Assembly (NCBI RefSeq): GCF_963457605.1
Contig: NZ_OY735139.1
Span: 744,001-808,000, forward strand
DNA length: 64,000 nt
DNA from: an uncultured Gellertiella sp.
GTDB lineage: Bacteria > Pseudomonadota > Alphaproteobacteria > Rhizobiales > Rhizobiaceae
Direction: 5' to 3'
Numbering within the stretch: the first letter of the stretch is position 1; the number at the start of each line of letters is the position of its first letter. Below the pieces are notes generated by a model. That model saw only the letters and a list, made by a program, of their open reading frames with translations, was not told the DNA's origin and ran no database searches. Positions 21,216 to 58,848 of this stretch are shown piece after piece. The position numbers and the translations under genes were made by a program.

Positions 21216-21482
21216 ATACCAAAGATCATTGATAGGAACCCATTGGACCGGATCGATTTCGGTTTCCGGCCAGGAGAAAACCGCAGTCGGACCCGAAGGT
21301 CCGGCGAGGATTTTCGACGCCGTCCGGAAGCCGAAAGCGACCGGTCGCGGGTGGCAGGGAAATCGGCCACCGGAGGGCGTCGAAATCCTCGTGCGATGCA
21401 AACAGCATCGCCCTCCGGTCTTCTCCTGCCCGGTAACCGTTACCCTGCCATCCAATGGGTTCCTGTCAATGATCTTTGGTAT
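21216..21482 (+). repeat. 267-bp palindromic element with 32-bp terminal inverted repeats, copy 1
   Basis: Left arm starts ATACCAAAGATCATTGATAG, and the right arm is its reverse complement with one mismatch over 32 bases. Inside are further matching arms (CAGGAGAAAACCG near the left, CTTCTCCTG near the right; CGAGGATTTTCGACG against CGTCGAAATCCTCG), and small hairpins GGACC-CGAA-GGTCC and GCGATGC-AAACA-GCATCGC. It encodes no protein. A second copy with compensated changes is at 58580. It is MITE-like and non-autonomous; no parent transposase is seen here. Confidence 0.88.
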
Positions 21483-21737
21483 AAGGGGATCGAGAGCAGA
21501 AGCAGCAGGCGCCTGTACCAGCGAGGCGCGCTGGGGAGGATGAGCCACACCGGGCGGCGCGAACCAGTTCGCGCGAAGGCAAGGGCTTTGCCCTCGATCA
21601 GGAGTGAAACGCATGTGGTTCCTACCCTTGAGTATCACGCTTACGATAGAGAAAACCCGCACGAGCTGGTCAATGACCGTGCGGGTTCGATTCTTTAGCT
21701 AGGCGAAAAGGGGGGCGGGTTCTCGCCCGTCCTCCAC
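21483..21737. other. Structured non-coding stretch between the palindromic element and ispDF
   Basis: No convincing gene, but several stem-loops: GCGCGAAC-CA-GTTCGCGC (21557-21574), GGCAA-GGGCT-TTGCC (21578-21592) extended by a CGA/TCG pair, CCAGCG-AGGCG-CGCTGG, and a longer pairing of GAGCCACA (21542) with TGTGGTTC (21614). A 29-codon frame at 21613-21702 has a good AGGAG site but ends in the terminator-like hairpin and has no recognisable product. Transcription direction is unclear. Confidence 0.35.
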
Positions 21738-21738
21738 T
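21652..21738 (-). ncRNA. Candidate small RNA with own promoter and terminator
   Basis: On the minus strand a good promoter (21745-21773) is followed by about 87 bases holding a first hairpin (GGGCGAGAACCCGCCC) and then a terminator-type stem AACCCGCACG...CGTGCGGGTT (21654-21687, containing an inner GGTCA-T-TGACC hairpin) followed by TTTTCTCT. There is no open reading frame of note. The layout (promoter, two hairpins, U-rich end) is that of a trans-acting sRNA; I do not recognise a known family. Confidence 0.42.
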
Positions 21739-21744
21739 CCCGCA

Positions 21745-21773
21745 ATATAGACGTCGTCATCGGGCTTGACAAG
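21745..21773 (-). promoter_or_regulatory. Candidate sigma-70 promoter, minus strand
   Basis: Read on the minus strand: -35 CTTGTC (21768-21773), a spacer of exactly 17 bases, and -10 CTATAT (21745-21750). This closely matches the rhizobial consensus CTTGAC-N17-CTATAT. Predicted start near 21738. It could drive the sRNA or supply a long leader to dusB. Confidence 0.55.
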
Positions 21774-21929
21774 ACACCGCTAATGCTCCGGCGGAATGAT
21801 CATTTTTCCCTTATGCCACATTCGGGAAAACCGGCAATTGCGCGCAAAACTTCGTTTGCGCTCTTTGCCTGACAAACTATAACCCGGCGCAAAGGCAGTG
21901 TTCCGTTCAAACCCATGTTGCAGGATCCC

Positions 21930-23132
21930 ATGACCGCATCGCATCGTTACGGTATCGTCATTGTCGCCGCCGGTCGCGGCGAACGGGCTGGCGCTTCCGG
22001 GGAAGGACCGAAACAGTATCGCAAGATCGGCGGTCGTCCAGTGATCGCGCGAACCCTGGAAGTGTTTGCGAGCTGGCCCGGTACGGCAAGGCTTGTGGTG
22101 GTGATTCATCCCGACGACGCCGCGCTTTGTGCCCGGGCGCTTGAGGATGTGCCGGCAGATCCCCGCCTCAAGATCGTCACTGGCGGTGCCTCGCGCCAGC
22201 AGAGCGTCCGCAACGGGCTCGAAGCGCTCGGCGACTGCGGGATTTCGCATGTGCTGATCCAGGATGCGGTGCGACCCTTTGTCGATCACGCGCTGCTGGA
22301 CCGGGTGGCGGACTGTCTGGAAGCGGGGGCGGTCGCCGCCCTACCCGCCATGCCGGTTGCCGATACGCTGAAGCGGGGCTCGCCAGACGGGCTGGTGATG
22401 GAAACGGTGGCGCGCAGCGGCCTCTACGCCGCCCAGACCCCGCAGGCATTCGCCTACCAGCCGATCCTCGACGCGCACCGCAAGGCTGCCGAAAGTTCTG
22501 CCTACGAATTTACCGACGACGCCTCGATTGCAGAATGGGCGGGAATGCCGGTACGCTTCGTCGAGGGCAGCCCTGATAACATCAAGCTCACCGTGAAGCG
22601 GGATATCGCCATGGCCGATGAAAAACTCTCTTCCGTGCTGCCGGATGTGCGCACCGGCAACGGCTATGACGTGCACCAGCTGGTTCCCGGTGATGGCGTG
22701 ACGCTCTGCGGAATCTTCATTCCGCATGACCAGACGCTGCTCGGCCATTCCGATGCCGATGTGGCGCTGCATGCCCTGACCGACGCGCTGCTCGCCACCT
22801 GCGGTGCCGGCGATATCGGCGACCATTTTCCGCCTTCCGACATGCAGTGGAAGGGGGCGGCCTCGCGCATTTTCCTCGAACATGCGGCAAAAATCGTCCG
22901 CGACAACGGCGGGATGATCATGAATGCCGATATTTCCCTGATCGCCGAAGCCCCGAAAGTCGGTCCGCATCGCGCGGCGATGCGCCAGGCGCTGTCAGAC
23001 ATGCTGGGTATCGCGCTGGAACGCTGTTCGGTGAAGGCCACCACCAACGAAAAGATCGGCTTTGTCGGCCGTCGCGAAGGCATTGCGGCGATTGCGACGG
23101 CGACCGTGGTTTATGGCGGACGCCCGGCATGA
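21930..23132 (+). CDS. ispDF: Bifunctional IspD/IspF (MEP pathway)
   Basis: About 400 residues combining two non-consecutive steps of isoprenoid precursor synthesis. IspD (residues ~1-230) is the CDP-ME synthase, with [23 protein letters not shown] and IQDAVRPF. IspF (residues ~235-400) is the MECDP synthase, with the zinc motif [21 protein letters not shown] and a C-terminal [12 protein letters not shown]. The fusion is typical of alphaproteobacteria. The start at 21930 is preferred (AGGA ahead of it); an ATG 15 bases upstream is in frame. The stop overlaps the next gene (ATGA). Confidence 0.95.
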
Positions 23133-23632
23133 GCCCCTATCCCGACGATATCGAGGCGCTTGCCCGGAAGATCGTTTTCCGCTTCATCGCCCTCGGCTGG
23201 CGAATTGCCACGGCGGAGTCCTGTACCGGCGGGCTGATTGCCGGGGCGCTGACCGACATCGCCGGTTCCTCGGCGGTGGTCGACCGGGGATTCGTCACCT
23301 ACAGCAACGAAGCGAAGGTCGACATGCTCGGCGTTTCGCAAACAACTCTTGCCGAATTCGGTGCCGTCTCGCGCCAGACCGCCCTGCAAATGGCCGCAGG
23401 CGCGCTCAGCCGCTCCCGCGCCGATGTGGCGGTGGCAGTGACGGGCATCGCCGGCCCCGGCGGCGGCTCTCCCGAAAAGCCGGTCGGCCTTGTCCACCTC
23501 GCGGCAAAAGCCCGCGACGGCCGCTCCCTCCACCACGAAATGCACTATGGCGACCTCGGTCGCGATGGCATCCGTCGGGCGACAGTCAGGACTGCGCTGG
23601 AGATGCTGGGGGAACTGGGCGGCGTAGGGTGA
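23129..23632 (+). CDS. pncC: CinA-family nicotinamide-nucleotide amidohydrolase
   Basis: A 167-residue protein corresponding to the C-terminal amidase domain of CinA alone. TAESCTGG (28-35, nucleophile S31) and [17 protein letters not shown] are diagnostic. It hydrolyses NMN to nicotinic acid mononucleotide in pyridine-nucleotide recycling. Translation is coupled to ispDF through a four-base ATGA overlap. Confidence 0.93.
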
Positions 23633-23748
23633 ATGGATTTACGTAATCACGGGTTGCCGGGCATTTACCTCAAGCTGAATTTTTAGCAGGATTGTCCGAC
23701 CTCAACCGGGAGAATCACGTTGATCGGCATTCGGCTTTTTACCCATTC

Positions 23749-23799
23749 CTAGAGTTTGTCAGGGAAAACCGGATTCCACTTTTCCCTGACAAACTCTAG
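23749..23799. repeat. Mosaic hairpin element, copy C (L fused to inverted L)
   Basis: A perfect 51-base palindromic unit: 20 bases beginning CTAGAGTTTGTCAGGGAAAA, an 11-base loop CCGGATTCCAC, then the exact reverse complement ending in CTCTAG. It amounts to two left ends of the mosaic element joined head to head, with the M and R modules missing. The following membrane-protein fragment begins at its right edge. Confidence 0.85.
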
Positions 23800-23800
23800 C

Positions 23801-24322
23801 TGGCATCGATATATCCTGCTGGAAGAACAACCTCTCCGAAGCGCCCATGTGACCCGGATGGCCAGCTACTTCTTCGCCGGACTGCGGTTCTGGCTTGTCC
23901 TGATGGCCATCAGCCTGGTCACGGGGTTTCTGGCGGCCGTCCTGTCGGCTGTGTTCAAGAATTTCATTGTGATCATCCTGGCGTTCGGCATCCTTTATCT
24001 GGTCCTTTTGACGGCCGCACTCCGGTTTTCGAGCGCCTTGCCGGGCTTTGCCCTTGGAACACTCGACTCGGCCTTCGACGGCTGGCGCATGACGAGAGGC
24101 CAGACCCGAGATATTGCAATTGCCGGTGTTTTGACGCTGCTGGTGTATTTTACGGTAGGCCTCCTGCAAGGCCTTACATATATCGGTCTGGCGAAATTTC
24201 CGGGATCAACCGCAATGGACATCTGGACGATAACACCGGTCCAGATTGCACTTTTTGTGGCACAACAGTGGTTTTTGGGCATGCTCTCCCTGTCGCTGAT
24301 CACCACCCTTTACGGCTACTAG
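23801..24322 (+). pseudogene. Membrane-protein fragment bracketed by two mosaic elements
   Basis: The readable frame starts directly at the edge of element copy C with WHRYILLEE, a motif that in a rhizobial membrane-protein family lies in the middle of the protein after an N-terminal membrane region. About 174 codons remain with four hydrophobic helices, ending TTLYGY and a TAG contributed by element copy D. Relatives, as I recall them, continue a few residues further. The N-terminal part therefore appears lost. An internal ATG at 23858 could still give a 154-residue product; the formal frame also runs back through the repeat to a TTG at 23756. No function can be assigned. Confidence 0.55.
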
Positions 24323-24422
24323 AGTCTGTCAGGTTCTTATTGAACCAGACAGACTCTAGTGCCCTTTGTTTTCGTTTGTCTTTTCGGGAAAACCGGATTC
24401 CACTTTTCCCTGACAAACTCTA
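24319..24422 (-). repeat. Mosaic hairpin element, copy D (inverted, R-L)
   Basis: In reverse orientation: a 41-base right hairpin (CTAGAGTCTGTC ... GACAGACTCTAG), a linker with TTTTCGTTTGTC, then the left hairpin ending ...CTGACAAACTCTA. With copy C it brackets the membrane-protein fragment in inverted orientation. Confidence 0.85.
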
Positions 24423-24481
24423 TTTCGAAAAACGCGACCTCGCCTGATCACCGGGCAAGCCCCGTCCCCACCAGAAACGCA

Positions 24482-24514
24482 AAATCCCGCCGGAAAGCTG
24501 TTCCGGCGGGATTT
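24482..24514 (-). terminator. Rho-independent terminator after ettA
   Basis: A 14-bp stem AAATCCCGCCGGAA-AGCTG-TTCCGGCGGGATTT, A-rich on one side and T-rich on the other, 25 bases beyond the ettA stop on the minus strand; it can serve both directions. Confidence 0.85.
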
Positions 24515-24539
24515 CTGTTCGTGAGACCGTGTCGGGCGG

Positions 24540-26189
24540 TCAGCGCGTCAGGCGCTTGTAGGTTACCCGGTGCGGATTGATGCTGTCGACGCCGAGGCGG
24601 CGCATCTTGTCCTTTTCGTAGTCTTCGAAGTTGCCTTCGAACCATTCCACATGGCTGTCGCCTTCGAAAGCGAGGATATGGGTGGCGAGACGGTCGAGGA
24701 ACATGCGGTCGTGCGAGATGATCACCGCGCAGCCTGCGAAGTTTTCCAGCGCATCTTCGAGCGCTGCCAGGGTTTCCGTATCGAGGTCGTTGGTGGGTTC
24801 GTCGAGCAGCAGCACGTTGCCGCCGGCCTTCAGCATCTTGGCCAGATGCACGCGGTTACGCTGGCCGCCCGAAAGCGTGCCGACCTTCTGCTGCTGGTCG
24901 CCGCCCTTGAAGTTGAAGGCACCGCAATAGGCGCGGGAATTCACCTCATGCTTGCCGAGCTTCAGTATGTCGTTGCCGCCGGAAATTTCCTCCCAGACGG
25001 TCTTGTTGGCCTCCAGCGTGTCGCGGCTCTGGTCGACATAGCCGAGCTGCACCGTGTCGCCGACGCGGATCGAGCCGCTGTCGGGCTGTTCCTGGCCGGT
25101 GATCATCCGGAACAGCGTGGTTTTGCCCGCACCGTTCGGGCCGATGACGCCGACAATGCCGCCGGGCGGCAGCTTGAAGTTCAGGCCTTCGATCAGCACC
25201 CGGTCGCCATAGGCCTTGGTGAGGTTTTCCGCCTCGATCACCACCTGGCCGAGCCGCTCGCCGACCGGGATGACGATCTGTGCATCGCCGGGACGGCGGT
25301 TTTCCGCTGCCGCCACCAGATCGTCATAGGCGCGGATACGGGCCTTGGACTTGGCCTGGCGGGCCTTCGGGCTCTTGGCCATCCATTCCTGTTCGCGGGC
25401 AATCGCCTTCTGGCGGCTGTCGTCCTCGCGGCCTTCCTGCAGCATGCGCTTGGCCTTGGCACCGATATAGGCGGAATAATTGCCCTCATAGGGAATGCCG
25501 CGGCCGCGGTCGAGTTCGAGAATCCAGCCGGTGACATTGTCGAGGAAGTAGCGGTCGTGGGTGATCATCATCACCGCGCCGGGATATTCGCGCAGGTGCT
25601 TTTCGAGCCAGGCGATGGTTTCGGCGTCGAGATGGTTGGTGGGTTCGTCGAGCAGCAGCAGGTCGGGCTTCGACAGAAGCAGCTTGCAGAGCGCCACACG
25701 GCGGCGTTCACCGCCCGAAAGGCCTTCGACGGCACTGTCGCCGGGCGGGCAGCGCAGCGCGTCCATTGCCATTTCCACCTGGCTTTCGAGATCCCAGAGG
25801 TTCTGGCCATCGATGATGTCCTGCAGGCGCGCGCCCTCATCCGCCGTCTCGTCGGAATAGTTCATCATCAGTTCGTTGTAGCGGTCGAGGATCGCGGTCT
25901 TGGCGGCAACGCCTTCCATGACATTCTCAAGCACGGTCTTGGCCGGATCGAGCTGCGGCTCCTGCGGGAGATAGCCGAGCGTCGCGCCTTCGGCGAGCCA
26001 GGCTTCGCCGGTATATTCCCTGTCGAGACCGGCCATGATGCGCAGCACGGTGGACTTGCCCGCGCCGTTCGGGCCGAGAATGCCGATCTTGGCATCGGGG
26101 TAGAAGGAAAGGTGGATGTTTTCCAGTACCTTCTTGTTGCCATAGGCCTTGTTGAGGCCGGACATGTGATAGATGAACTGACGTGCCAT
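24540..26189 (-). CDS. ettA: Energy-dependent translational throttle protein EttA (ABC-F ATPase)
   Basis: A 549-residue soluble ABC-F protein with two ATP-binding cassettes (GPNGAGKS and GPNGAGKT Walker [16 protein letters not shown] and [15 protein letters not shown] signatures; [11 protein letters not shown] and [11 protein letters not shown] Walker B) and no membrane segment. The linker with the charged [17 protein letters not shown] helix is the EttA type. EttA binds the ribosomal E site and gates entry into elongation according to ATP/ADP ratio. The start at MARQFIYHM gives the usual length; upstream codons of the longer frame show no similarity. Confidence 0.94.
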
Positions 26190-26383
26190 GGACCGCTCTG
26201 CTCCGCGCGAATTCCGGTGAAAGGGATGTTTTGCCGCTATGTAGGCGAAATGGGGCTGGGGAGCAATGCGCGAATGCGGCATTGATGATGGACACCTGCA
26301 CAGTTGCTGTTGAACTTTGCCCGCAAATCCCGTTTGCTGGCCCGGCAGTCCCGCCTGATGCCGCCCCGCCGGAGTTCCCGCTG

Positions 26384-27316
26384 ATGTTCCAGGATACCCG
26401 CCACCTGAAGAGCCCGACCGGGGCGACGCTTGCCTGGCACCATGCCGAGGCGAAGGACACGCCGCGCGGCATCATCCTGATCTCGCACGGCCTTGCCGAG
26501 CATGCCCGGCGCTACCAGCGTTTTGCCACGACCATGGCCGAAACCGGCTATCATGTCTTTGCCCATGATCATCGCGGCCATGGCGAAACCACCGCCCCCG
26601 ATGCGCCGCTGGGCCGCTTTGCCGCAAGGGATGGCGTGGAGGCCGTCATGGCCGATGTGATGGCGGTCCGGGAGATGGCGGTCGACCTGCATCCCGGCCT
26701 GCCGGTCATCCTGTTCGGCCATTCCATGGGCGGGCTGATCAGCCTCAACACCGCCGTCACCCATCCCGACGCCTTTCAGGGCGTCACGGTCTGGAACAGC
26801 AATTTCAGGGCAGGCCTTGCCGGGCGCGCCGCACTGGCGATCCTTGCCGTCGAGCGCATGCTGCTCGGCTCCGACGTGCCGAGCGCCCTGCTGCCGAAAC
26901 TGACCTTTCAGGCCTGGGGCAAGGCGATCCCCGGCCACCGCACGCTGTTTGACTGGCTGAGCAACATTCCGGCGGAGGTCGATGCCTATATCGCCGATCC
27001 GCTCTGCGGCTTCGATGCCAGCGTGTCGCTGTGGCGAGATATATTTGCGATGATGTACCGCGCCCCCGCACCGGAATGGCTGGCACGGCTGCGTCCGAAT
27101 TTCCCGCTCAATCTGGTCGGTGGCGGGCAGGATCCGGCCACGGACCGGGGAAAAGCGGTGACATTTCTGGCAAATCATTTGAAGAAGGCGGGATTCTCCC
27201 GTATCACCACCGAGATATATCAGAACGCCCGGCACGAGACCCTGAACGATATCGTCGCCGACAAGGCAACCTTGAATTTTGCCGCCTGGTGCGGGCGGAT
27301 CACGGCGCAGGCCTGA
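26384..27316 (+). CDS. Alpha/beta hydrolase, lysophospholipase/monoacylglycerol lipase type
   Basis: A 310-residue serine hydrolase of the Hydrolase_4 group. GHSMGG holds nucleophile S114, [12 protein letters not shown] (33-44) forms the oxyanion region, HDHRGHGET follows, and NARHETLND near the C-terminus carries the catalytic histidine. The family cleaves lysophospholipids or monoacylglycerols (PldB-like). There is no signal peptide, so it is cytosolic. The start at 26384 is supported by GGAG nine bases upstream; the longer frame from 26183 overlaps ettA. Confidence 0.88.
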
Positions 27317-27361
27317 GCCCGCATCGCGCCCGGTGACGGCATGAGGACCGGGAAAGATCGG

Positions 27362-28345
27362 ATGGCTGAACCCGAAAAAAGGCAGGACGACAGGCACGGC
27401 GCCGCGCCCGCCGTCCGGCCCGTCGACAATATCACCCTCGGGCTGGTGCTGATGTTCGTCTCGGTGATCATCGCGCCGATGATCGACGTGTTCGGCAAGC
27501 TCGCCACCGCCACCATCCCGCCCGCCGAGGTCGCCTTCTTCCGCTTTCTCTTCCAGTCGCTGCTGATGCTGCCCTTCGTGCTGCATCACGGCACCTGGCG
27601 GCAGATCACCTTGCGGCGCATGCCGATGCATGCGTTTCGCGGCGCGATTCTGGCGATCTCGATGATAGCCTTCGTCACCACGCTGCGGGTCATGGCAGTG
27701 GCCGATGCCATCGCCATCTTCTTCGTCGAGCCGATCATGCTGACCATTCTCGGCGGCCTGTTCCTGAAGGAAACCATCGGCTGGCGGCGCTACATGGCCT
27801 GCGCGGTCGGCTTTGGCGGCGCGATGCTGATCATCCGGCCAAGCTTCAACGAAATCGGACTGGTGGCCATCCTGCCCGTCGTCACCGCCTTCGGCATTGC
27901 CGTCTTTGCGCTTCTGACCCGGGTCCTCGCCCATCGCGAAGATGCCTGGTCGATGCAGATGCAGACCGGCATCTGGGGTGCGGTCTTTTGCGGCGTGCTG
28001 CTGTTTTTCGGCCATGGCACCGGCTCGGTTCTGTTTGACCCGGTCATCCCCGGTCTCAAGGGTCTCTCCGAAACATTTGGCGTCGGGGTCTGGGCCACCG
28101 TCTCCGGCACCTTTGCCATCTATGCCTATCGCAATGCCCCCGCCGCGACGCTCGCCCCGATGCAATATTTCGAAATCGTCTGCGCCACCGTGGTCGGCTG
28201 GCTGGTGTTCGGCGATTTCCCCGATACGATCAAATGGCTGGGCATATCGATCATCATCGCGTCCGGCCTGTTCATCCTGTGGCGGGAACGGGTGGTGGCC
28301 GCACGAATTTCCGCCCTTTCCGCCCAATCGGCCTTCAATCCATGA
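27362..28345 (+). CDS. EamA/DMT-family transporter
   Basis: A protein of about 327 residues with ten predicted helices in two EamA repeats. The N-terminus is charged (EPEKRQDDRHG) and cytosolic. Features such as ADAIAIFFVEPIMLTILGG and PAATLAPMQYFEIVCATVVGW match the RarD/YdcZ-like 'S-adenosylmethionine uptake/DMT' branch common in alphaproteobacteria. The substrate is unknown. The ATG at 27362 is preceded by GGGAAAG; the ATG at 27341 is an alternative. It lies 45 bases after the hydrolase and may share its transcript. Confidence 0.85.
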   Translation: MAEPEKRQDDRHGAAPAVRPVDNITLGLVLMFVSVIIAPMIDVFGKLATATIPPAEVAFFRFLFQSLLMLPFVLHHGTWRQITLRRMPMHAFRGAILAISMIAFVTTLRVMAVADAIAIFFVEPIMLTILGGLFLKETIGWRRYMACAVGFGGAMLIIRPSFNEIGLVAILPVVTAFGIAVFALLTRVLAHREDAWSMQMQTGIWGAVFCGVLLFFGHGTGSVLFDPVIPGLKGLSETFGVGVWATVSGTFAIYAYRNAPAATLAPMQYFEIVCATVVGWLVFGDFPDTIKWLGISIIIASGLFILWRERVVAARISALSAQSAFNP

Positions 28346-31331: not shown

Positions 31332-31347
31332 CCTCTCGCCAGACAGC

Positions 31348-48290: not shown

Positions 48291-48294
48291 GGTC

Positions 48295-50364: not shown

Positions 50365-51855
50365 ATGAACAACTCTATCAAACAGGCGGCCTGCGTTGGC
50401 GGCGGCGTTATCGGCGGCGGCTGGATCGCCCGCTTCCTGCTGGCAGGCATCGACGTCAATGTCTTCGATCCGCATCCCGAATCCGAGCGGATCGTCAATG
50501 AAGTCCTGACCAATGCACGCCGTGCCTATGGCATGCTGACCCAGGCACCGCTGCCGAAGGAAGGCAAGCTCACCTTCTGCAAGAGCCTTGAAGAGGCCGT
50601 CAAGGATGCTGACTGGATTCAGGAATCCGTTCCGGAACGCCTCGACCTGAAGCGCGGCGTGCTGAACAAGATCGACGCTGCCGCCCGTCCGGATGCGCTG
50701 ATCGGCTCCTCCACCTCGGGCCTGATGCCATCCGACCTGCAGGCCGAGATGAAGCATCCCGAGCGGCTGTTCGTCGCCCATCCCTATAACCCCGTCTACC
50801 TGCTGCCGCTCGCCGAACTCGTTGGCGGCACCAAGACCGCCCGGGCAACGCTCGACGCCGCCAAGGCGAAGCTCGCCCCCATCGGCATGAAGGGCGTGAT
50901 CATCGCCAAGGAAATCGAAGCCTTTGTCGGTGACCGCCTGCTCGAAGCCGTCTGGCGCGAAGGCCTGTGGCTGATCAAGGACGATATCTGCGATACCGAA
51001 ACCCTTGACGACGTGATCCGCTATTCCTTCGGCATCCGCTGGGCGCAGATGGGCATGTTCGAAACCTACCGCATCGCCGGTGGCGAAGCCGGTATGCGCC
51101 ACTTCCTCGCCCAGTTCGGCCCGTGCCTGTCCTGGCCGTGGACCAAGCTGACCGATGTCGTCGATCTCAACGACGAGCTGGTGGGCAAGATCGCCGACCA
51201 GTCCGACGCCCAGTCGGGTGCCCGTGGCATCCGCGAGCTGGAGCGCATCCGCGACCAGAACCTGGCCGGCATCATGCAGGCGCTGAAGGCTGGCGACGAG
51301 GGCCGTGGCTGGGGTGCGGGCAAACTGCTCGCCGAATTCGAAAGCCATCTGTGGAAGCAGGCCCCGAAGCCGGTTCTCAACGTCTCGGAAGAGCCGATCC
51401 GCCTGCTCGAGGTCAACGTGCATCCGGCCTGGGTCGATTACAACGGCCACATGACCGAGCACCGCTACCTGCAGGTCTTCGGCGATACCAGCGATGCGCT
51501 GCTGCGCCTGATCGGCTCCGACCTCGACTACGTCGCCGGTGGCCACAGCTACTACACGGTCGAAACCCACATTCGCCATCTCGGCGAAGCCAAGCTCGGC
51601 CAGGCGCTCTATTCGACGACGCAGCTGCTCTCGCATGACGACAAGCGCCTGCACGTCTTCTCGCGCATCCATGATGCCGGGACCGGCGACCTGCTGGCAA
51701 CGGCGGAACAGATGCTGCTGCATGTCGACAGCAAGGCCGGCAAGTCCTGCCCCGCTGCCCCGGCCATTCTTGAAAACCTGAAGACCATCGCCGCCAGACA
51801 CGCAGGCCTCGCCACCCCTGAAGGTGCAGGCCGCAGCGTCGGGCAGAAGCGGTAA
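50365..51855 (+). CDS. lcdH: L-carnitine dehydrogenase fused to betainyl-CoA thioesterase
   Basis: A 496-residue two-enzyme fusion. Residues 1-~320 form a 3-hydroxyacyl-CoA-dehydrogenase-like unit (Rossmann GGGVIGGGWIA at 12-22; HPYNPVYLLPLAELVGG), which oxidises L-carnitine to 3-dehydrocarnitine with NAD. Residues ~350-480 are a hot-dog thioesterase (VHPAWVDYNGHMTEHRYLQV), which splits betainyl-CoA to glycine betaine and CoA. The fusion brackets the BKACE reaction encoded immediately upstream. It is described in rhizobia as the single-polypeptide CDH-TE form. Confidence 0.92.
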   Translation: MNNSIKQAACVGGGVIGGGWIARFLLAGIDVNVFDPHPESERIVNEVLTNARRAYGMLTQAPLPKEGKLTFCKSLEEAVKDADWIQESVPERLDLKRGVLNKIDAAARPDALIGSSTSGLMPSDLQAEMKHPERLFVAHPYNPVYLLPLAELVGGTKTARATLDAAKAKLAPIGMKGVIIAKEIEAFVGDRLLEAVWREGLWLIKDDICDTETLDDVIRYSFGIRWAQMGMFETYRIAGGEAGMRHFLAQFGPCLSWPWTKLTDVVDLNDELVGKIADQSDAQSGARGIRELERIRDQNLAGIMQALKAGDEGRGWGAGKLLAEFESHLWKQAPKPVLNVSEEPIRLLEVNVHPAWVDYNGHMTEHRYLQVFGDTSDALLRLIGSDLDYVAGGHSYYTVETHIRHLGEAKLGQALYSTTQLLSHDDKRLHVFSRIHDAGTGDLLATAEQMLLHVDSKAGKSCPAAPAILENLKTIAARHAGLATPEGAGRSVGQKR

Positions 51856-51930
51856 AGAGACCTCGGCGGGCCTGCCCCACCCCTTCGCGCATATCTGCAG
51901 TCTGCACTATGAGCGTCCCCCTCCCCTTCG

Positions 51931-51949
51931 CGCAAACCAGAGGTTTGCG
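51931..51949. repeat. Hairpin in the carnitine-cluster spacer
   Basis: CGCAAACC-AGA-GGTTTGCG, perfect 8-bp stem inside a 174-base spacer that also has a longer CCCCACCCC / GGGGTGGGG pairing (near 51880 and 51962). It could be a transcript-stabilising or attenuating structure between the dehydrogenase and acyl-CoA dehydrogenase genes; no T-run follows. Confidence 0.45.
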
Positions 51950-52029
51950 TTGGGACGGGGTCAGGGGTGGGGTCAGCCGCGCCGTCCCCCGGATTTCGTC
52001 CGACACACACTATTTGAAGGAAACGCAAG

Positions 52030-53190
52030 ATGCATTTCGGCTTGACTGAAGAACAGGACATGATCGTCAATACCGTGCGCACCTTCGTCGAGACGGAGCT
52101 TTATCCGCTTGAGAACGAAGTCGAGCGCACCGGGATCGTGCCGAAGGAAATCGGCATGGAAATCAAGCGCAAGAGCCTGGAACTCGGCTTTTACGCCTGC
52201 AACATGCCGCAGGATGTCGGCGGGGCCGGGCTTGACAACCTGACCTTCACGCTGGTCGAGCGCGAGCTTGGCCGCGCCTCGATGGGCCTTGCCGCCTATT
52301 TCGGCCGTCCCTCGGGCATCCTGATGGGCTGCAATGCCGAACAGCGCGAGCGCTACCTGATCCCCGCCGTCAAGGGCGAGAAATTCGATGCACTCGCCAT
52401 GACCGAGCCGGATGCTGGTTCCGACGTGCGCGGCATGAAGTGCTTTGCCAAGCCCGACGGCGGTGACTGGGTCGTCAACGGCACCAAACATTTCATCAGC
52501 CATGCCGATATCGCCGATTTCGTCATCGTCTTCATCGCCACCGGCGAAGAGCAGACGCCGCGCGGCCCGAAGAAGCTGATCACCTGCTTCCTCGTCGACC
52601 GCGGCACGCCGGGCTTTGAAATCCGCGAGGGCTATTCCTCGGTCTCCCATCGCGGCTACCACAATTGCATCCTCGACTTCACCGATTGCCGCCTGTCGTC
52701 GGCCCAGATCCTCGGCGAGCTGCACAAGGGTTTTGACCTTGCCAATGACTGGCTCTATGGCACCCGCCTGACGGTTGCCGCCTCCTGCGTCGGTCGCGCC
52801 CGCCGGGTCTTCGACCTTGCCCTTCCCTATGCGGCGGAACGCAAGCAGTTCGGCAAGGCCATCGGCGCCAACCAGGGCGTTTCCTTCAAGCTCGCCGACA
52901 TGATCACCGAGATCGACGCCGCCGACTGGCTGACCCTTGCCGGTGCCTGGCGTCTCGACCAGGGCCTGCCGTCGAACCGCGAGATTGCCTCGGCCAAGCT
53001 CTATGCCTCGGAAATGCTGGCCCGTGTCACCGACGAAGCCATCCAGATCTTCGGCGGCATGGGCCTGATGGACGATCTGCCGCTCGCCCGTTTCTGGCGC
53101 GATGCCCGCGTCGAGCGGATCTGGGACGGCACGTCGGAAATCCAGCGCCACATCATCAGCCGCGATCTCCTGCGGCCGCTCGGAGCGTAA
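52030..53190 (+). CDS. Acyl-CoA dehydrogenase, probable gamma-butyrobetainyl-CoA dehydrogenase
   Basis: A 386-residue FAD enzyme with the three ACAD domains. LAMTEPDAGSDVRGMKC is the FAD/substrate signature, and the C-terminal IFGGMGLMDDLPLARFWRDARVERIWDGTSEIQRHIISR is the second PROSITE pattern region (given here only in part by its key residues GGMG and WDGTSE). It would oxidise gamma-butyrobetainyl-CoA to crotonobetainyl-CoA. The next two genes (CoA ligase, CaiD-like hydratase) overlap by one and four bases, indicating one operon. Confidence 0.87.
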   Translation: MHFGLTEEQDMIVNTVRTFVETELYPLENEVERTGIVPKEIGMEIKRKSLELGFYACNMPQDVGGAGLDNLTFTLVERELGRASMGLAAYFGRPSGILMGCNAEQRERYLIPAVKGEKFDALAMTEPDAGSDVRGMKCFAKPDGGDWVVNGTKHFISHADIADFVIVFIATGEEQTPRGPKKLITCFLVDRGTPGFEIREGYSSVSHRGYHNCILDFTDCRLSSAQILGELHKGFDLANDWLYGTRLTVAASCVGRARRVFDLALPYAAERKQFGKAIGANQGVSFKLADMITEIDAADWLTLAGAWRLDQGLPSNREIASAKLYASEMLARVTDEAIQIFGGMGLMDDLPLARFWRDARVERIWDGTSEIQRHIISRDLLRPLGA

Positions 53191-55256
53191 TGATGGAACT
53201 CGACAGCCTCGACCGCCTGCTGCGCCCGAAAACCATTGCCGTGTTTGGCGGCAAGGAAGCCCGGCGCGTGATCTATCAATGCGACAAGATGGGCTTTGCC
53301 GGAGAAATCTGGCCGGTCCATCCGAAGGAAGACGAAATCGCCGGACGCAAGTGCTACCGCTCGGTGGCCGACCTGCCCTCCGCCCCCGATGCCGCCTTTG
53401 TCGGCGTCAACCGCAACCTTACCGTCGACATCGTCCGCCAGCTCTCCGAACGGGGTGCGGGCGGCGCGATCTGCTATGCCTCGGGCTTTCTCGAAGCCCA
53501 GTCGGAGCTTGCCGACGGCGCCGACCTGCAGAACGAACTGGTAAAGGCAGCAGGCCGGATGCGGATCATCGGTCCGAACTGCTACGGCATCGTCAACGCG
53601 CTCGATGGCGCATTGCTCTGGCCCGACCAGCACGGCATGATCCGCGTCGAAAAGGGCGTGGCGATCCTCACCCAGTCGTCGAATATCGTGCTCAATCTCA
53701 CCATGCAGACCCGTGGCCTGCCGATTGCCTATATCATGACCGCGGGCAACCAGGCCCAGTCCGGCCTGTCGGAAATGGCGATTGCCGCCCTCGAAGATCC
53801 GCGCGTCACCGCCCTCGGCCTGCATATCGAAGGCATCGACAGCGTCGAGGCGCTGGAGCGGCTGAGCCGCCGCTCGCGCGAGCTGAAGAAGCCGGTGGTG
53901 GCGCTGAAGGTCGGCAAGTCCGAGGCCGCCCAGAAGGCAACCGTCTCCCATACCGCGTCGCTGGCCGGCAACCATGCCGTTTCCTCCGCCCTGCTGAAGC
54001 GGCTCGGCATCGGCCAGGTGGCAAGCCTGCCGGTCATGCTCGAAACCCTGAAGCTGCTGCATGTCTATGGGCCGCTGTCCTCCTATGACATCTCCTCGAT
54101 GAGCTGTTCGGGGGGCGAGGCCTCGCTGATGTCCGACACCGCCCATGGTCGCAAGATCAATTTCCGGGCGCTGAAGACCGAGCAGCTTCCGGCGCTGCGC
54201 GAAAGCCTCGGCGAGATGGTGACGCTCGCCAATCCGCTCGATTACCACACCTTCGTCTGGGGCAATGAGGACCGGCAGGCCGCCGCCTTCACCGCGATGA
54301 TGCAGGGCGGCTATGCGCTGAACCTGATCGTGCTGGACTTCCCGCGCTCCGACCGCTGCACCTATGAAGACTGGTGGACGACGGTCAATGCCATGCGCCG
54401 GGCGAGTGCCGCCAACAATGGCGTGCCGGCAGGCTTCGTCGCCTCGATTGGCGAGAACATGCATGAGGACGTGGCCTTCAAGCTGATGGAAATGGGCATG
54501 GTGCCGCTCTGCGGCATCGACGAGGCGCTGACGGCGGCTGAAATCGCCGCCGATATCGGCCTTGCCTGGCGGACCCCTGCCCCGCAGCCGCTGTTGTCCG
54601 CCCGCCTGAAGGACGGCGACAGCGAGACCCTGTCGGAAGCCGAGGCCAAGGCCGAACTTGCCGCCCATGGCGTGCCGGTCCCGGCAGGCGTCACGGCCAA
54701 TACGCCCGAGGCGATTGCCGATGCGGCGGAAAAGCTCGGCTATCCCGTGGCGCTCAAGGGTCTGGGCGTTGCCCACAAGACCGAGGCCGGAGCCGTCAGG
54801 CTCAACCTCCAGTCCCGCGATGACGTACTGAAGGCGGCCCAGGCCATGGCGCATGTCGCCAGGGGCTATCTGGCGGAAAAGATGGTCGGCAAGCCGGTGG
54901 CCGAACTGATCATCGGCGCCACCAGCGATGCCGTTGCCGGTCCGGTCCTGACCGTCGGTGCCGGGGGCATCCTCGTCGAACTGATCGAGGACGCCGCCCT
55001 GCTGACGCTGCCGACCACCGACGCCGAAATCCGCGCCGCCATTTCCGGCCTGAAGATTTCGAAGCTGCTGACCGGCTATCGCGGCCAGGCAAAGGGCGAC
55101 ATCGAGGCCCTGGTCAGGACCGTGGCGGCAGCCGCCGCCTTCGTTACCGCCAATGCCGAACGGCTGGAAGAACTCGACATCAACCCGGTCATGGTGCTGC
55201 CCGAGGGGCAAGGTGCCGTTGCCGCAGACGCGCTGATCAGGAGGAAGACATCGTGA
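53190..55256 (+). CDS. NDP-forming acyl-CoA synthetase (acetate--CoA ligase family)
   Basis: A 688-residue fused alpha/beta ligase: CoA-binding domain (LLRPKTIAVFGG, residues 10-130), succinyl-CoA-ligase-like domain with the phosphohistidine in VSHTASLAG (about residue 253), and a C-terminal ATP-grasp domain (LAAHGVPVPAGV; GYPVALKGLGVAHKTEAGAV; ELDINPVMV). It probably activates gamma-butyrobetaine or crotonobetaine with CoA. This is unlike the AMP-forming CaiC/BbsG used in enterobacteria, so the substrate is assigned by context only. It has no acetyltransferase domain. Confidence 0.85.
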   Translation: MMELDSLDRLLRPKTIAVFGGKEARRVIYQCDKMGFAGEIWPVHPKEDEIAGRKCYRSVADLPSAPDAAFVGVNRNLTVDIVRQLSERGAGGAICYASGFLEAQSELADGADLQNELVKAAGRMRIIGPNCYGIVNALDGALLWPDQHGMIRVEKGVAILTQSSNIVLNLTMQTRGLPIAYIMTAGNQAQSGLSEMAIAALEDPRVTALGLHIEGIDSVEALERLSRRSRELKKPVVALKVGKSEAAQKATVSHTASLAGNHAVSSALLKRLGIGQVASLPVMLETLKLLHVYGPLSSYDISSMSCSGGEASLMSDTAHGRKINFRALKTEQLPALRESLGEMVTLANPLDYHTFVWGNEDRQAAAFTAMMQGGYALNLIVLDFPRSDRCTYEDWWTTVNAMRRASAANNGVPAGFVASIGENMHEDVAFKLMEMGMVPLCGIDEALTAAEIAADIGLAWRTPAPQPLLSARLKDGDSETLSEAEAKAELAAHGVPVPAGVTANTPEAIADAAEKLGYPVALKGLGVAHKTEAGAVRLNLQSRDDVLKAAQAMAHVARGYLAEKMVGKPVAELIIGATSDAVAGPVLTVGAGGILVELIEDAALLTLPTTDAEIRAAISGLKISKLLTGYRGQAKGDIEALVRTVAAAAAFVTANAERLEELDINPVMVLPEGQGAVAADALIRRKTS

Positions 55257-56038
55257 CCGCAGAGCCAATCCGCACCCGCCGCGAAGGCGGCATTCTCGAA
55301 GTGACGATGGACCGGCCGAAGGCCAATGCCATCGATCTCGCGACCTCGCGCATCATGGGCAGGATCTTCGCCGACTTCCGCGACGACCCCTCCCTGCGCG
55401 TTGCGATCATCACCGGGGCCGGCGAAAAGTTCTTCTGCCCCGGCTGGGACCTGAAGGCTGCCGCCGGTGGCGATGCGGTCGATGGCGATTACGGCATCGG
55501 CGGCTTTGGCGGCATGCAGGAACTGCGTGACCTCAACAAGCCGATCATCGCGGCGATCAACGGCATCTGCTGCGGCGGCGGTTTTGAAATCGCGCTGTCG
55601 ACCGACCTGATTCTCGCCGCCGAGCATGCGACCTTCGCCCTGCCGGAAATCCGCTCCGGCACGGTGGCGGATGCCGCCTCGATCAAGCTGCCGAAGCGCA
55701 TTCCCTACCATGTCGCGATGGACATGCTGCTGACCGGCCGCTGGCTTGACGCCAGTGAAGGCCACCGCTGGGGCTTCGTCAACGAGATCCTGCCCGCCGA
55801 CAAGCTGATGGCCCGCGCCTGGGAACTTGCCCGCCTGCTCGAAAGCGGCCCGCCGCTGGTCTATGCGGCGATCAAGGAAGTGGTGCGCGAGGCCGAAGGC
55901 TCGAAGTTCCAGGACGCCATGAACAAGGTCACCCGCCGCCAGCTGAAGACCGTCGACATCCTCTACGGCTCCGAAGACCAGCTGGAAGGCGCACGCGCCT
56001 TCGCCGAAAAGCGTGATCCGGTCTGGCAGGGCAAATAA
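55253..56038 (+). CDS. caiD: Enoyl-CoA hydratase, probable crotonobetainyl-CoA hydratase
   Basis: A 261-residue crotonase-fold enzyme. MDRPKANAIDLATS and ITGAGEKFFCPGWDLKAAAGG form the oxyanion hole, and PIIAAINGICCGGGFEIALSTD is the signature helix with LPEIRSGTVADAAS holding the second catalytic glutamate region. PGWDLKA and the 261-residue length match CaiD, which hydrates crotonobetainyl-CoA to L-carnitinyl-CoA. It starts with GTG after AGGAGG and overlaps the ligase stop by four bases. A strong terminator ends the operon. Confidence 0.87.
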   Translation: MTAEPIRTRREGGILEVTMDRPKANAIDLATSRIMGRIFADFRDDPSLRVAIITGAGEKFFCPGWDLKAAAGGDAVDGDYGIGGFGGMQELRDLNKPIIAAINGICCGGGFEIALSTDLILAAEHATFALPEIRSGTVADAASIKLPKRIPYHVAMDMLLTGRWLDASEGHRWGFVNEILPADKLMARAWELARLLESGPPLVYAAIKEVVREAEGSKFQDAMNKVTRRQLKTVDILYGSEDQLEGARAFAEKRDPVWQGK

Positions 56039-56067
56039 GCCCTCCAGGGACCTGACGCAGACATCAG

Positions 56068-56096
56068 CCGTGCATCCCCCCGGATGCACGGTTTTT
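56068..56096 (+). terminator. Rho-independent terminator of the carnitine operon
   Basis: CCGTGCATCC-CCCC-GGATGCACGG followed by T5; its T-run merges directly into the TTAGAG start of the next mosaic element. Confidence 0.88.
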
Positions 56097-56281
56097 AGAG
56101 TTTGTCAGGGAAAAGTGGAATCCGGTTTTCCCGCTCAAACTTGTTTGAGCGAAAGGACAAACGAAACCACAGAAAACCAGAGTCTATCTGGTTCAGTATG
56201 AACCTGACAGACTCTAACGCTCCTTGATTTCGTTTGTCTTTTCGGGAAAACCGGATTCCACTTTTCCCTGACAAACGCTAA
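56095..56281. repeat. Mosaic hairpin element, copy F/G (symmetric L-M-R-L')
   Basis: A forward copy (56095-56217) with left hairpin, one GCTCAAACTTGTTTGAGC palindrome and the right hairpin (GGTTCAGTATGAACC core) is followed by an inverted left half (to 56281), so one R hairpin serves two L arms. The inverted arm ends ...CTGACAAACGCTAAG, whose TAG (minus strand) is the stop codon of the adjacent ParB-like gene. Confidence 0.85.
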
Positions 56282-56889
56282 GGGCCGCACCAGCCGGGCA
56301 GGAAGCTTGCATCCTTGTGCCTGGCAATGTCCCATGCCGCCGCCAGTGCCTTTTTCGGATTGTCGCGGGCAAGGGTCGCATCCATCCGGTCGCGCAGATA
56401 GTCCGCCCAGAGGAATTCGGAAAACGGCGTGGTGTCCTTGGAATAGCCGCCCGCCTCGCGCAATTCGCCCGCCACCGAGCGGAAGGGGTCGTCGACCAGC
56501 CCTTCCACCGTCTTTGGCAGCGCCTCCGGCGATTGCCGCCTGCCCTTTTCGTCGAAAGGATGCAGCCAGGCGCGCTTGTCCATGAAGCGCAGGAATTCGT
56601 CCTTGCCGAGATGGGAGAGGCGGGCCTGCACCGCGACCAGCACCTTTTCCTGCCCCTCCTGGTGCAGGGCAAGGGCGAGGTGGTGATGGTCGACAAGGTA
56701 GAAGACATCCCCGGGGCCGACGACCACAGGCACCAGGTGATCGCCGAGAAAGGTCCCCTCCTCCCGCGCCGTCTTTTCCCGCCAGTTGTCGCGCTTGCGC
56801 TTCACCTCGCGGGCACCCATGGTGATCTGGGTCGGGCGCAGATCAAGGATCGGCACCAGTTTCAGGATCGGTTCCACACTCGACATCAC
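56278..56889 (-). CDS. ParB-like nuclease-domain protein
   Basis: A 203-residue protein of the ParBc_2 (putative ParB-like nuclease) family: an N-terminal LDLRPTQITMGAREVKRKR, then PVVVGPGDVFYLVDHHHLALAL, the sulfiredoxin/ParB-type core with the conserved DHHH cluster, then a basic helical tail. It is not a chromosome-partitioning ParB (no HTH). In this family the substrate is unknown. The stop codon is furnished by the inverted repeat arm; related proteins may extend a little further, so the last residues could be altered. Confidence 0.78.
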   Translation of the reverse strand: MMSSVEPILKLVPILDLRPTQITMGAREVKRKRDNWREKTAREEGTFLGDHLVPVVVGPGDVFYLVDHHHLALALHQEGQEKVLVAVQARLSHLGKDEFLRFMDKRAWLHPFDEKGRRQSPEALPKTVEGLVDDPFRSVAGELREAGGYSKDTTPFSEFLWADYLRDRMDATLARDNPKKALAAAWDIARHKDASFLPGWCGP

Positions 56890-56913
56890 GGTCTCCCCTT
56901 CATGTGCAGGCCG

Positions 56914-58542
56914 TCATGCGGGCCGGACGGGCTTTACGTCCATGGCCCGGACCGCGTCGTCGACGCTGTAGTAACACCGGGAGAGCAGATCCGTTTCACC
57001 GGCGAGCTCAAACAGGTCCCTCAGATGATCATGCACCCGGGCATAATGCAGCCTGAGACCGCGCGCCTGCAAGGACTGGTCGAATTCCGTCAGCTGGTCG
57101 AGCGCGGTCGTGTCGACATCGAAGCTTTCCTCAAGGCTGAGCACCACCCGGCGGATCGCCGGATCTTCGGCCACCCGCGCGGCCACGGTGCTGAGCACCG
57201 TATCGGCATTGGCGTAGAAAAGCGGCGCTGCCGGGCGGAAGACCGCCAGATCAGATGCCAACGCCGCATCGGGATGGCGGGCCGCATCGACATAATCACG
57301 CCCGCCGCCAAGCGGCGCGAGCCGGGCGATCACCGGAGCCGACAGCCGCCGCAGCAGGGCGATCAGCGACAGGACGATGGCAAGCAGCATGCCGTCGAGC
57401 ACGCCGAAGGTGAGAATGCCCGCCGCCGTGCCGAAAGCGAGGTAATTGTCGCGCCCGAGCCGCCAGAGCCGCAGGAACGGCTTCGGATCGAGCGCATGGG
57501 ACAGGGCGGCGATGATCACCGCGGCAGGCACCGGCTTCGGCAGGTCGGCAATCAGCCCGTGGCCGAAGACGACAAGCAGGGCCAGCGCCAGTGCCGCAAC
57601 CAGTCCCGCAAGCCTGCCCGATGCCCCTGCGGCCTGCGAGGCGGAGCCCGCCGAAAATCCGGCGCCCACTGGCATGCCGCCGGTAAGCGCGCTCGCCAGA
57701 TTGGCGGCGGCGAAGGCGGAAAGCTCGCGATTGGCGCTGACCCTGTCGCCATGGCTGAGCGCCAGGCTGCGCACCGTCCCCCAGGATTCGGCAAACAGGA
57801 TCAGCACCAGCGGCACGGCATATTGGGCAAGGCCCGACAGCACTGGCCAGTCGAGCGCGGGCAGGTCCGGCCAGGTGAGCCTCAGCCCGATGTCGCCGAC
57901 CATCTCCACCCCAAGGGCGGAAAGCCCTGCCAACCGCGACAGCGACACCCCCGCCACCAGCACGAGCAGCGGGCCCGGCACATGGCGAAAGCGCCGGACT
58001 GCGAGCAGAAACGCAAGTGACGCCGCCCCGAGCGCCAGGCTTGCCGCATGGACCTGCGGCAGGTGGTGGAACAGGTCCGCACCGAACGCCGCGAGATTGG
58101 TGCCTGACGCCCTGAAGCCGAGGAGATCCGGCAACTGGTGCAGGATGATGGTGACTGCCAGGCCGAAGGCAAAGCCCTTCAGCACGGGTCGCGAGATGAA
58201 GCCGGTCAGTCCGCCAAGCCGCAACAGCGCTGCGAGCAAAAACAACCCGCCGGTCAGCAGCACGATCCAGGTGGAAAAGCCCGCCCTTGCCGCAACGCCG
58301 CCCGGGATGGCGGCAAGGGTCGCGGCGAGAATGGCGGCGGAGGACGAGGTTGGCGCGACGATGGCAAAGCGGCTTTGCCCGACAGCCGCATAGGCCACCG
58401 CCCCCGCAATGCCGGCCAGGATGGCGCGTTCCGGCGGCAGGCCTGCGATCCCCGCATAGGCCACCGCCTCCGGCAGCATCAGGCCCGCGACCGAAAGCCC
58501 CGCCAGGCCATTGCGCCAAATCTCCAAATGCCGTCTCCGCAA
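56914..58542 (-). CDS. SulP-family anion transporter with STAS domain
   Basis: About 542 residues: ten to twelve hydrophobic helices beginning GLAGLSVAGLMLPEAVAYAG (family signature PEAVAYA), then a cytosolic STAS domain (residues ~430-535; VVLSLEESFDVDTTALDQL). SulP proteins carry sulfate, bicarbonate or dicarboxylates. The sequence upstream is a repeat: the longest frame begins with GTG at 58593, inside the terminal repeat of the palindromic element. A TTG at 58542 (LRRRHLEIWRN) is the better start for the family, though without a strong ribosome-binding site. The native 5' end may have been altered by the insertion. Confidence 0.85.
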   Translation of the reverse strand: MRRRHLEIWRNGLAGLSVAGLMLPEAVAYAGIAGLPPERAILAGIAGAVAYAAVGQSRFAIVAPTSSSAAILAATLAAIPGGVAARAGFSTWIVLLTGGLFLLAALLRLGGLTGFISRPVLKGFAFGLAVTIILHQLPDLLGFRASGTNLAAFGADLFHHLPQVHAASLALGAASLAFLLAVRRFRHVPGPLLVLVAGVSLSRLAGLSALGVEMVGDIGLRLTWPDLPALDWPVLSGLAQYAVPLVLILFAESWGTVRSLALSHGDRVSANRELSAFAAANLASALTGGMPVGAGFSAGSASQAAGASGRLAGLVAALALALLVVFGHGLIADLPKPVPAAVIIAALSHALDPKPFLRLWRLGRDNYLAFGTAAGILTFGVLDGMLLAIVLSLIALLRRLSAPVIARLAPLGGGRDYVDAARHPDAALASDLAVFRPAAPLFYANADTVLSTVAARVAEDPAIRRVVLSLEESFDVDTTALDQLTEFDQSLQARGLRLHYARVHDHLRDLFELAGETDLLSRCYYSVDDAVRAMDVKPVRPA

Positions 58543-58579
58543 CCATCGCCCCGGCGAAAAATCCGCCCCTGATTCTCTT

Positions 58580-58848
58580 ATACCAAGGATCACTGATGGG
58601 AACCCATTCGACCGGATCGATTTTGGCTTGCGGCCAGGAGAAAACCGCAGTCGGACCTACCGGTCCGGCGAGGATTTTCGACGCCGTCCGCAAGTCAAAA
58701 GCGACCGGCCCTCCGGGTGGCGTGGAATTCGGCCACCGGAGGGCGTCGAAATCCTCGGTCGATGCTCAAAGCATCGACCTGCGGTATTCTCCTGCCCGGT
58801 ATCCGTTTCCACGCCATCGAATGGGTTCCCATCAGTGATCCTTGGTAT
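58580..58848 (+). repeat. 269-bp palindromic element with 32-bp terminal inverted repeats, copy 2
   Basis: Left arm starts ATACCAAGGATCACTGATGG, and the right arm is its exact reverse complement over 32 bases. Internal paired arms (CAGGAGAAAACCGCAG / CTGCGGTATTCTCCTG) and hairpins (GGACC-TACC-GGTCC; GTCGATGC-TCAAA-GCATCGAC) match copy 1 in position, with base changes compensated on the opposite arm. It has the same orientation as copy 1, and its left end lies against the SulP gene. Confidence 0.9.

Follow-up and report, generated by a model that had tools for sequence, protein, structure and literature searches.

A palindromic repeat of a Gellertiella genome: a probable non-autonomous mobile element with IS630-type ends and a conserved, covarying interior

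Miniature inverted-repeat transposable elements (MITEs) are usually regarded as passive deletion remnants. Among bacterial repeats, ERIC and YPAL form hairpins, and most of ERIC, Correia/NEMIS, YPAL, and RUP fold as RNA. Repetitive extragenic palindromes (REPs) and bacterial interspersed mosaic elements (BIMEs) are located at the 3' ends of mRNAs, and REPs are not known to carry terminal inverted repeats (TIRs) with target duplications. For insertion sequences (ISs) of the IS630 family in general, TA is the usual target duplication. In the sections of the cited reports that deal with such repeats, NEMIS, RUP, and Correia are given as bacterial repeats of the MITE or palindromic type (PMC3733652, PMC4853749), REPs as sequences of 20-40 bp (PMC3733652), and RIME and Sm-1 to Sm-5 as repeats of rhizobia (PMC2245857). 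Here, we describe a palindromic element of which two copies lie in a 64,000-nucleotide stretch of DNA (the window; contig NZ_OY735139.1, forward strand positions 744,001 to 808,000) of an uncultured Gellertiella sp.

We conclude, with a probability of roughly 80%, that the element is a non-autonomous MITE with IS630-type ends which is apparently mobilized in trans by a transposase and whose foldable body is most likely under selection. A transposase of an IS630-family group would cut and paste the MITE, as the shared ends and the target TNA (N, any base) suggest, and the foldable state of the body, beyond the termini, would most likely be selected in the lineages that multiply. Selection on the body fold is considered most likely because the pairing of the arms was kept while their letters changed.

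Both copies were located exactly where the original prediction had placed them, as palindromes of 267 and 269 bp, with every quoted arm pair present, and the arm differences between copies 1 and 2 are compensated inside each copy. The element proper, TACC...GGTA, covers positions 21217-21481 (265 bp) and 58581-58847 (267 bp) of the window, while the flanking outer A and T are part of 3-bp target duplications (TAA/TAA for copy 1 and TTA/TTA for copy 2). Of the 31 positions of the outer arms, all pair in copy 2 and all but one, a T.G, in copy 1. The fold energies were −171.5 kcal/mol (z = −14.2) and −174.4 kcal/mol (z = −15.6), and none of 200 shuffles was as good as either, so the fold of both copies exceeds chance by far. 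The typical length of the element is 267 bp, and with this short length, its 31-bp TIRs, and chance open reading frames only, it conforms to a MITE; in line with the predicted lack of coding capacity, no conserved gene was seen in the element, and the chance frames run across it. The parts of the two copies, in window coordinates, are as follows.

21214..21216, TAA target duplication on the left of copy 1
21217..21481, + strand, copy 1, subfamily A MITE, TACC...GGTA, 265 bp, flanked by divergently oriented Dus-like and IspD/YgbB-like genes
21217..21247, + strand, left terminal inverted repeat of copy 1 (5' strand of stem P1)
21451..21481, − strand, right terminal inverted repeat of copy 1 (3' strand of P1)
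21482..21484, TAA target duplication on the right of copy 1
58578..58580, TTA target duplication on the left of copy 2
58581..58847, + strand, copy 2, subfamily B MITE, TACC...GGTA, 267 bp, flanked by genes for a SulP-like transporter (−) and an S15-like peptidase (+)
58581..58611, + strand, left terminal inverted repeat of copy 2 (5' strand of P1)
58612..58633, + strand, left arm stem P2 of copy 2, 5' strand (alignment columns 32-53, swap test)
58652..58667, + strand, hairpin P3 in the left arm of copy 2, CGGACC-TACC-GGTCCG
58688..58708, + strand, left arm stem P2 of copy 2, 3' strand (alignment columns 111-132)
58718..58739, + strand, right arm stem P8 of copy 2, 5' strand (alignment columns 144-166, swap test)
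58760..58776, + strand, hairpin P6 in the right arm of copy 2, CGATGC-loop-GCATCG, the best conserved helix and part of the search pattern
58796..58816, + strand, right arm stem P8 of copy 2, 3' strand (alignment columns 228-249)
58817..58847, − strand, right terminal inverted repeat of copy 2 (3' strand of P1)
58848..58850, TTA target duplication on the right of copy 2

By their target duplications and dispersal, the palindromes are evidently mobile elements. When the ends were chosen without regard to the flanks, TNA was present on both sides at 56 of 70 distinct sites. Among the 56, N agreed between the two sides in 50, whereas composition alone predicts 19.6. C preceded the duplication in 29 cases and G followed it in 28, often resulting in a C-TNA-G context. 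An earlier count, in which equal flanks received a bonus of 1 and a few sites were held twice, gave 61 TNA-flanked copies out of 73, with N equal in 56; the 70-site count was made without the bonus and with distinct sites only. Of 121 motif matches, 17 lay too near the end of a locus, and 104 were kept, some of them with wrong ends (internally deleted forms).

Empty sites were searched with queries of joined flanks from 14 copies. One copy (L010; 1501-1769; G000:C2:2439896-2440164) interrupts a PPK2 gene (Pfam PF03976), and its site is empty in all four congeners (4/4), which align without gaps at 82-87% identity and with the frame open through the site. An in-frame insertion into this gene was considered and rejected: the frame resumes behind the element, but there is a stop inside it. 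At the L004 site, genome G007 aligned without gaps across the joint at 77% identity, and the L008 site was crossed by three congener loci at 75-77% with small indels, including a 1-base indel beside the joint in two of them. A weaker spanning match (71%) was found in G004 for the L007 site, and the other sites gave no empty-site evidence among the joined-flank matches looked at. The flank of L008 (about 60 bases on the left and 100 on the right) is itself another repeat with many matches in the genome and its congeners, and two paralogues in the source genome match it at 79-83%.

Searching the element's own genome (4.17 Mb, 2 contigs) revealed 15 full-length or nearly full-length copies in addition to fragments. 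The copies were divided into subfamily A (L001-L003, AAAGATCATTGATAGG) and subfamily B (L004-L015, AAGGATCACTGATGGG), and the window holds one of each. In a letter-by-letter comparison, eleven of the 12 copies of subfamily B each deviated from the consensus at 0-4 positions, indicating a recent burst of this subfamily. The genome also contains shorter derivatives of the element, i.e., foldbacks of 24-71 bp that share its ends as well as single ends, and the terminal pattern occurs 98 times at up to 3 mismatches versus 3 times for the reversed pattern. Relatives are present in other Hyphomicrobiales. Within the bacterial family the distribution is patchy, with matches in 29 of 297 genomes, the source genome included and some with short matches only.

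Several variant forms were seen among the relatives. L192, L226, L228, L199, L197, and L207 are foldbacks of about 18-57 bp, flanked by TNA left and right, that consist almost only of the two ends, which suggests decay products or minimal mobile units. In L221-L223 (G326, Ensifer adhaerens SD006, also the genome of L074) the P6 loop holds about 110 extra foldable bases, and this expanded element recurs at several places in G326 with its ends 377-378 bp apart. Another related element, represented by L160 and L183, is about 270 bp long and has TAGAGC ends and a different outer stem. In one G007 copy (L036/L159), part of the left arm is swapped for a short palindrome, TAGAGCATTTCC...GAAATGCTCTA.

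A search for terminal pairs spaced at IS length, in which 3 mismatches were tolerated, revealed no partner in the source genome. Among the matches listed in a pattern search of 21 genomes, a single pair of such ends, in G294, was spaced at 935 bp, and this stretch is a degenerate relative with pieces of a decayed IS630-type transposase carrying the HTH_29 and HTH_33 domains. A tblastn search with one of the transposase pieces gave 254 plasmid records. Of 11 plasmid loci fetched, nine had clear ends, all at 1158-1161 bp and all with identical TNA duplications (TTA in six, TGA in two, and TAA in one), where equal flanks had been given a small bonus in the choice of ends and some loci represent one and the same IS from related plasmids. 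For L243 and L293, no believable ends were obtained.

The ISs found in this way, IS630-family members of Rhizobiaceae (e.g., on S. meliloti pSmeAK21b, Ensifer canadensis pT173b, and Pararhizobium gei p2), share with the MITE the 33-bp right end and the TNA duplication. Unlike them, the MITE has no transposase gene and carries the right-end type at both termini, and no IS sequence was recognized in its body. The consensus of the IS right end is TACnnnnnnTCAnTGATCAGAACCCnTnnGCCC (33 bp, one spurious row included). Both MITE ends resemble it, subfamilies A and B matching 10 right ends at 21-26 of 33 positions; with the S. meliloti right end, subfamily B agrees at 24/33 and subfamily A at 26/33. 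As a control for subfamily B, 6894 other 33-mers starting with TAC, drawn from 8-kb loci with MITE-like ends left out, had a mean of 10.5, a 99.9th percentile of 18, and a highest value of 23. Other clades match the IS right ends at 17-25 of 33, except for the clade with TACCAAGTCTC ends (15-19). The element thus shows what is expected of an IS630-family MITE, namely ends like those of a partner IS and the same TNA duplication. The original prediction that no transposase is present holds for the element itself, but related IS630-family ISs exist, one of them in the same genome; the TIRs have a counterpart in this resident relative (L240), which is flanked by TTA/TTA, but its frame is stopped.

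TNA duplications are known from the IS5/IS1031 group, so a MITE of this group would also fit, and a resident DDE_Tnp_1 IS (L208) appears to be flanked by TAA in a CTAAG context. However, the ends of L208 start with GAGCCTGACC, the IS1031 type, and are unlike TACCAA...TGAT...GAACCCAT, whereas the IS630-family ends do resemble the latter. An IS5/IS1031 partner was therefore rejected on the basis of the termini, and we regard this origin as extremely unlikely.

The fold consists of the outer stem P1, which encloses two long facing hairpin arms, each with a short inner hairpin. The body of about 200 bp contains the conserved internal-loop letters AGGAG-A-ACCGCAG ... GAGGATTTTCGACG and their inverted copy. 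To assess covariation, we used an alignment (A1) of 55 full-length elements from genomes of the family and from among the matches listed in a scan of named genomes, i.e., 55 of 60 references, L159 with its partly replaced body having been omitted beforehand. In A1, 91.4% of 4446 cells were paired, versus 78.2% in shuffles and 29-47% when the strands were slid. Changes on both sides were found in 45 of 81 pairs (33.2 in shuffles), the covariation score was 0.336 (0.099 in shuffles), and RNAalifold, unprompted, returned the same arms from the alignment. Thus, in the larger alignment the arms vary together and not independently. P6, which was in the search pattern of the named-genome scan, hardly varies in A1.

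In a swap test, the duplex energy of each strand with its own partner was compared with that of a partner from another clade. The own and swapped values were −49.6 and −23.2 for P1, −28.0 and −20.9 for P2, −31.2 and −19.1 for P8, and −10.0 and −6.4 for P3, while control segments gave −11.1 and −11.4. As far as predicted energies go, the test shows that the strands of P1, P2, P3, and P8 co-evolve and that the arm interiors do so little with each other. P4/P5, a pairing between the arms that forms the main stem of an end-to-end rod, was rejected as a covarying helix, as it is complementary but shows little covariation (−44.5 own and −42.5 swapped, own better in 5/6 clusters). We read this complementarity as an inverted duplication of the conserved module; across its length, L002 aligns with its reverse complement at 72.7%, as after such a duplication.

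The original prediction quoted matched changes of the outer arms among its evidence for covariation. The outer 31 bp are, however, TIRs, and their matched changes would largely be explained by one transposase reading both of them. The inner arms, on the other hand, are non-terminal and mutually different, yet they pair across clades and therefore need an explanation of their own. Of the two explanations offered there for the covariation, maintenance of the fold agrees with the covarying inner arms P2, P3, and P8, but gene conversion between the arms was not borne out, as 8/8 substitutions were uncompensated.

This bears on a copying process, i.e., hairpin-templated strand switching or arm conversion, by which palindromes would be kept perfect without selection. 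Multi-base blocks do change together between the clades (GGAACC/GGTTCC in this genome and GATGAC/GTCATC in G007), and related loci contain near-perfect palindromes such as foldbacks of 24-48 bp and the arms of L229. However, among 11 near-identical resident copies, none of eight stem substitutions (six distinct) was compensated. Furthermore, a bulge and a mismatch beside the paired columns are conserved across clades (A36 in 52/55, A40 in 53, and G125 in 48), although pure arm homogenization would erase both, and the mispairs described below are uneven between the strands, which strand copying does not predict. Consequently, we consider a copying process unlikely.

In a second alternative, the element is an ordinary MITE with constrained termini and a passive body, in which the pairing of the founder has not yet decayed. 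Folding is common among MITEs, individual copies do decay, and few events may suffice for the many compensated differences that are clade-wide. On the other hand, the sequences of P2, P8, and P3 vary from clade to clade but still pair inside any one clade, where decay would break the pairs. In addition, the right-arm module is common to elements with different ends and a different target, which a passive body would not lead one to expect. These elements, termed type 2 (type 1 being the element described above), are about 307 bp long with the ends GAGC...GCTC and occur in Ahrensia, Tepidamorphaceae, Cohaesibacteraceae, Rhodobiaceae, and other assemblies; one type-2 query matched 10 of 397 genomes of the order. 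Their flanks are YTA...TAR in 26/40, i.e., TA is repeated inside YTAR. All 40 type-2 elements match the type-1 body at E ≤ 1e-3 and mainly in the right-arm module, versus none with reversed queries, but they were sampled with a pattern from that module, so the sharing is partly a sampling condition. The resemblance extends beyond the search pattern, reaching up to 72 bp at 87.5%. We conclude from these matches that the right-hand body evidently also occurs in elements that differ in their ends and target. A passive body appears rather improbable.

The mispairs of the arms differ between the strands. In the left arm, G.U exceeds A.C on the + strand (62 vs 14 in type 1 and 44 vs 1 in type 2, the type-2 strand counts being based on 36 of the 40 elements), while right-arm mispairs are mostly A.C on the + strand, that is, G.U on the − strand (46 vs 11 in type 1 and 35 vs 25 in type 2). 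The outer stem is balanced in type 1 (43 vs 34) and skewed in type 2 (8 G.U vs 67 A.C). In a count by hand per cluster, 10 of 12 informative cases fit this pattern for the left arm and 9 of 10 for the right arm, jointly 19/22 (one-sided sign test, 4e-4). The folding energies follow the same pattern. In type 1, the left arm folds better on the + strand in 50/55 and the right arm better on the − strand in 54/55 (40/55 and 49/55 for the stems alone), and the corresponding type-2 values are 36/36 and 35/36.

Each arm thus favors the strand that is read inward from its own end, which might, tentatively, be taken to mean that incoming transcripts fold. The body could accordingly be pictured as a two-faced RNA device carried by transposons, with arms selected for being read inward, that would act as an orientation-independent hairpin or insulator at mRNA 3' ends and be tolerable or useful to the host; this is possible but, in our view, doubtful. 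A transcript from either neighboring gene would then meet a correctly folded arm first, whatever the orientation of the insertion. The frequent location of insertions precisely at stop codons (see below) would suit such a role, and the device would have been carried by different transposon ends. An intrinsic terminator was rejected, as one weak terminator-like site was found at the edge of copy 2 and none in copy 1.

Alternatively, the whole element could be transcribed as one structured RNA that acts in trans like a small RNA. The whole-element fold is very stable and covarying, and it is slightly better on the − strand in 36/55 elements, including 4/4 of this genome and 12/13 of the Ensifer cluster. 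The average preference is small, however (−157.1 vs −154.4), and the largest cluster has none (12/25 better on the + strand). A search limited to sigma-70-like promoters found none in either copy, there is no Rfam match, and the occurrence in 29/297 genomes of the family is patchy. Since the left and right arms fold better on opposite strands, and the preference of the whole element for the − strand is mild, the single-RNA interpretation is disfavored and very unlikely.

Several observations weigh against our interpretation of a transposase-mobilized MITE with a selected body. Among the copies from this genome and G007, identical 3-base flanks were found in only 12 of 17, and the TACCAAGTCTC clade resembles the IS ends less (15-19 of 33). 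A search covering DDE_Tnp_1 and DDE_3 found no intact partner transposase in the genome; the L240 transposase carries an in-frame stop besides a frame change. As for the fold, the arm form and the end-to-end rod are close in energy, the single-sequence minimum free energy structure being the arm form in 31/55 and the rod in 23/55. Copy 1 scores better as a rod; in this comparison the P4 pairs of the rod were partly out of register. The column shuffles keep the relatedness of the sequences, and clades have many of the double changes in common. The swap test comprises 6 clusters, with P2 better with its own partner in 5/6, and P8 is partly misaligned in A1 (76% paired).

As for the strand asymmetry, random 105-base genomic pieces have a strand difference with a standard deviation of 6.3 kcal/mol, about as large as the type-1 means (−5.2 and 7.9). 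The weight of the strand energies therefore lies in their consistency, and the relatives are not independent. In freely folded arms, G.U pairs are nearly equal between the strands (1.91/2.02 and 1.76/1.58), and part of the arm energy difference reflects conserved motifs found in both arms. The asymmetry lies at few positions (columns 47-49 and 160-162). These are probably homologous in the two arms, and a descent of the asymmetry from one wobble site is possible.

The insertion sites show a relation to gene ends. The TNA is exactly the stop codon of a coding-like frame in 12 of 53 testable copies, compared with 464 of 12039 TNA sites in the same loci (binomial, 7e-7), where coding-like was defined by a custom rule on frame length and third-base G+C, and the control includes coding interiors. 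Survivorship explains at least part of this excess because insertions in coding interiors would be lost. In Rhizobium sp. SSA_523, an annotated gene ends at base 2500 and the element starts at 2501, and in Martelella an annotated gene on the other strand ends within the right-hand duplication. The orientation of genes around 89 copies, assigned with a custom gene caller, showed no clear bias (50 tandem, 21 convergent, and 18 divergent).

Other repeats were observed in the window at 1502-1639, 3813-3915, 23750-23805, 24318-24422, and 56096-56280 (TAGAGTTTGTCAGGG..., AGAGTCTGTC...GACAGACTCT). From their sequences, these five look like MITEs of another resident IS630-family IS (L232-L236, ends GAGTCTGTCAG, TA duplicated). 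The Rfam family Atu_C9 (RF02503), a small RNA of Rhizobiales, matches window positions 1404-1533 and overlaps one of them, so this family may partly describe a mobile repeat.

If the interior is indeed a conserved, covarying fold shared by elements with different ends, with arms that seem tuned to opposite strands, some bacterial MITEs would carry an RNA function that is under selection and buffers their own insertion. The element also indicates that there is an IS630 group that duplicates TNA, the targets of which coincide with stop codons read either way (TAA, TGA, TTA, and TCA).

The suggestion that this may be an undescribed structured repeat was borne out in part. We recognized no description of the element in the literature searched, although much subscription literature lies outside that search, and Rfam gave no match in either window copy, while 7 loci gave 4 matches, all far below the gathering scores; the kind of element, a MITE, is nevertheless known. 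RIME and Sm-1 to Sm-5 are, like the element, repeats between genes of Rhizobiaceae in the part of PMC2245857 that covers them, and since they were set side by side with it through description alone, the element may equal one of them. REPs and BIMEs are likewise palindromes outside genes, and the element is far longer than the 20-40 bp given for REPs in the relevant part of PMC3733652. ERIC, Correia/NEMIS, YPAL, and RUP are also gene-less sequences of 70-300 bp with TIRs and a stable RNA fold. Those repeats have other ends and hosts, and, unlike them, the element has two facing arms, conserved internal-loop motifs, cross-genus covariation, and a body shared among different ends. Its new aspect would be that of a MITE with a conserved, covarying interior.

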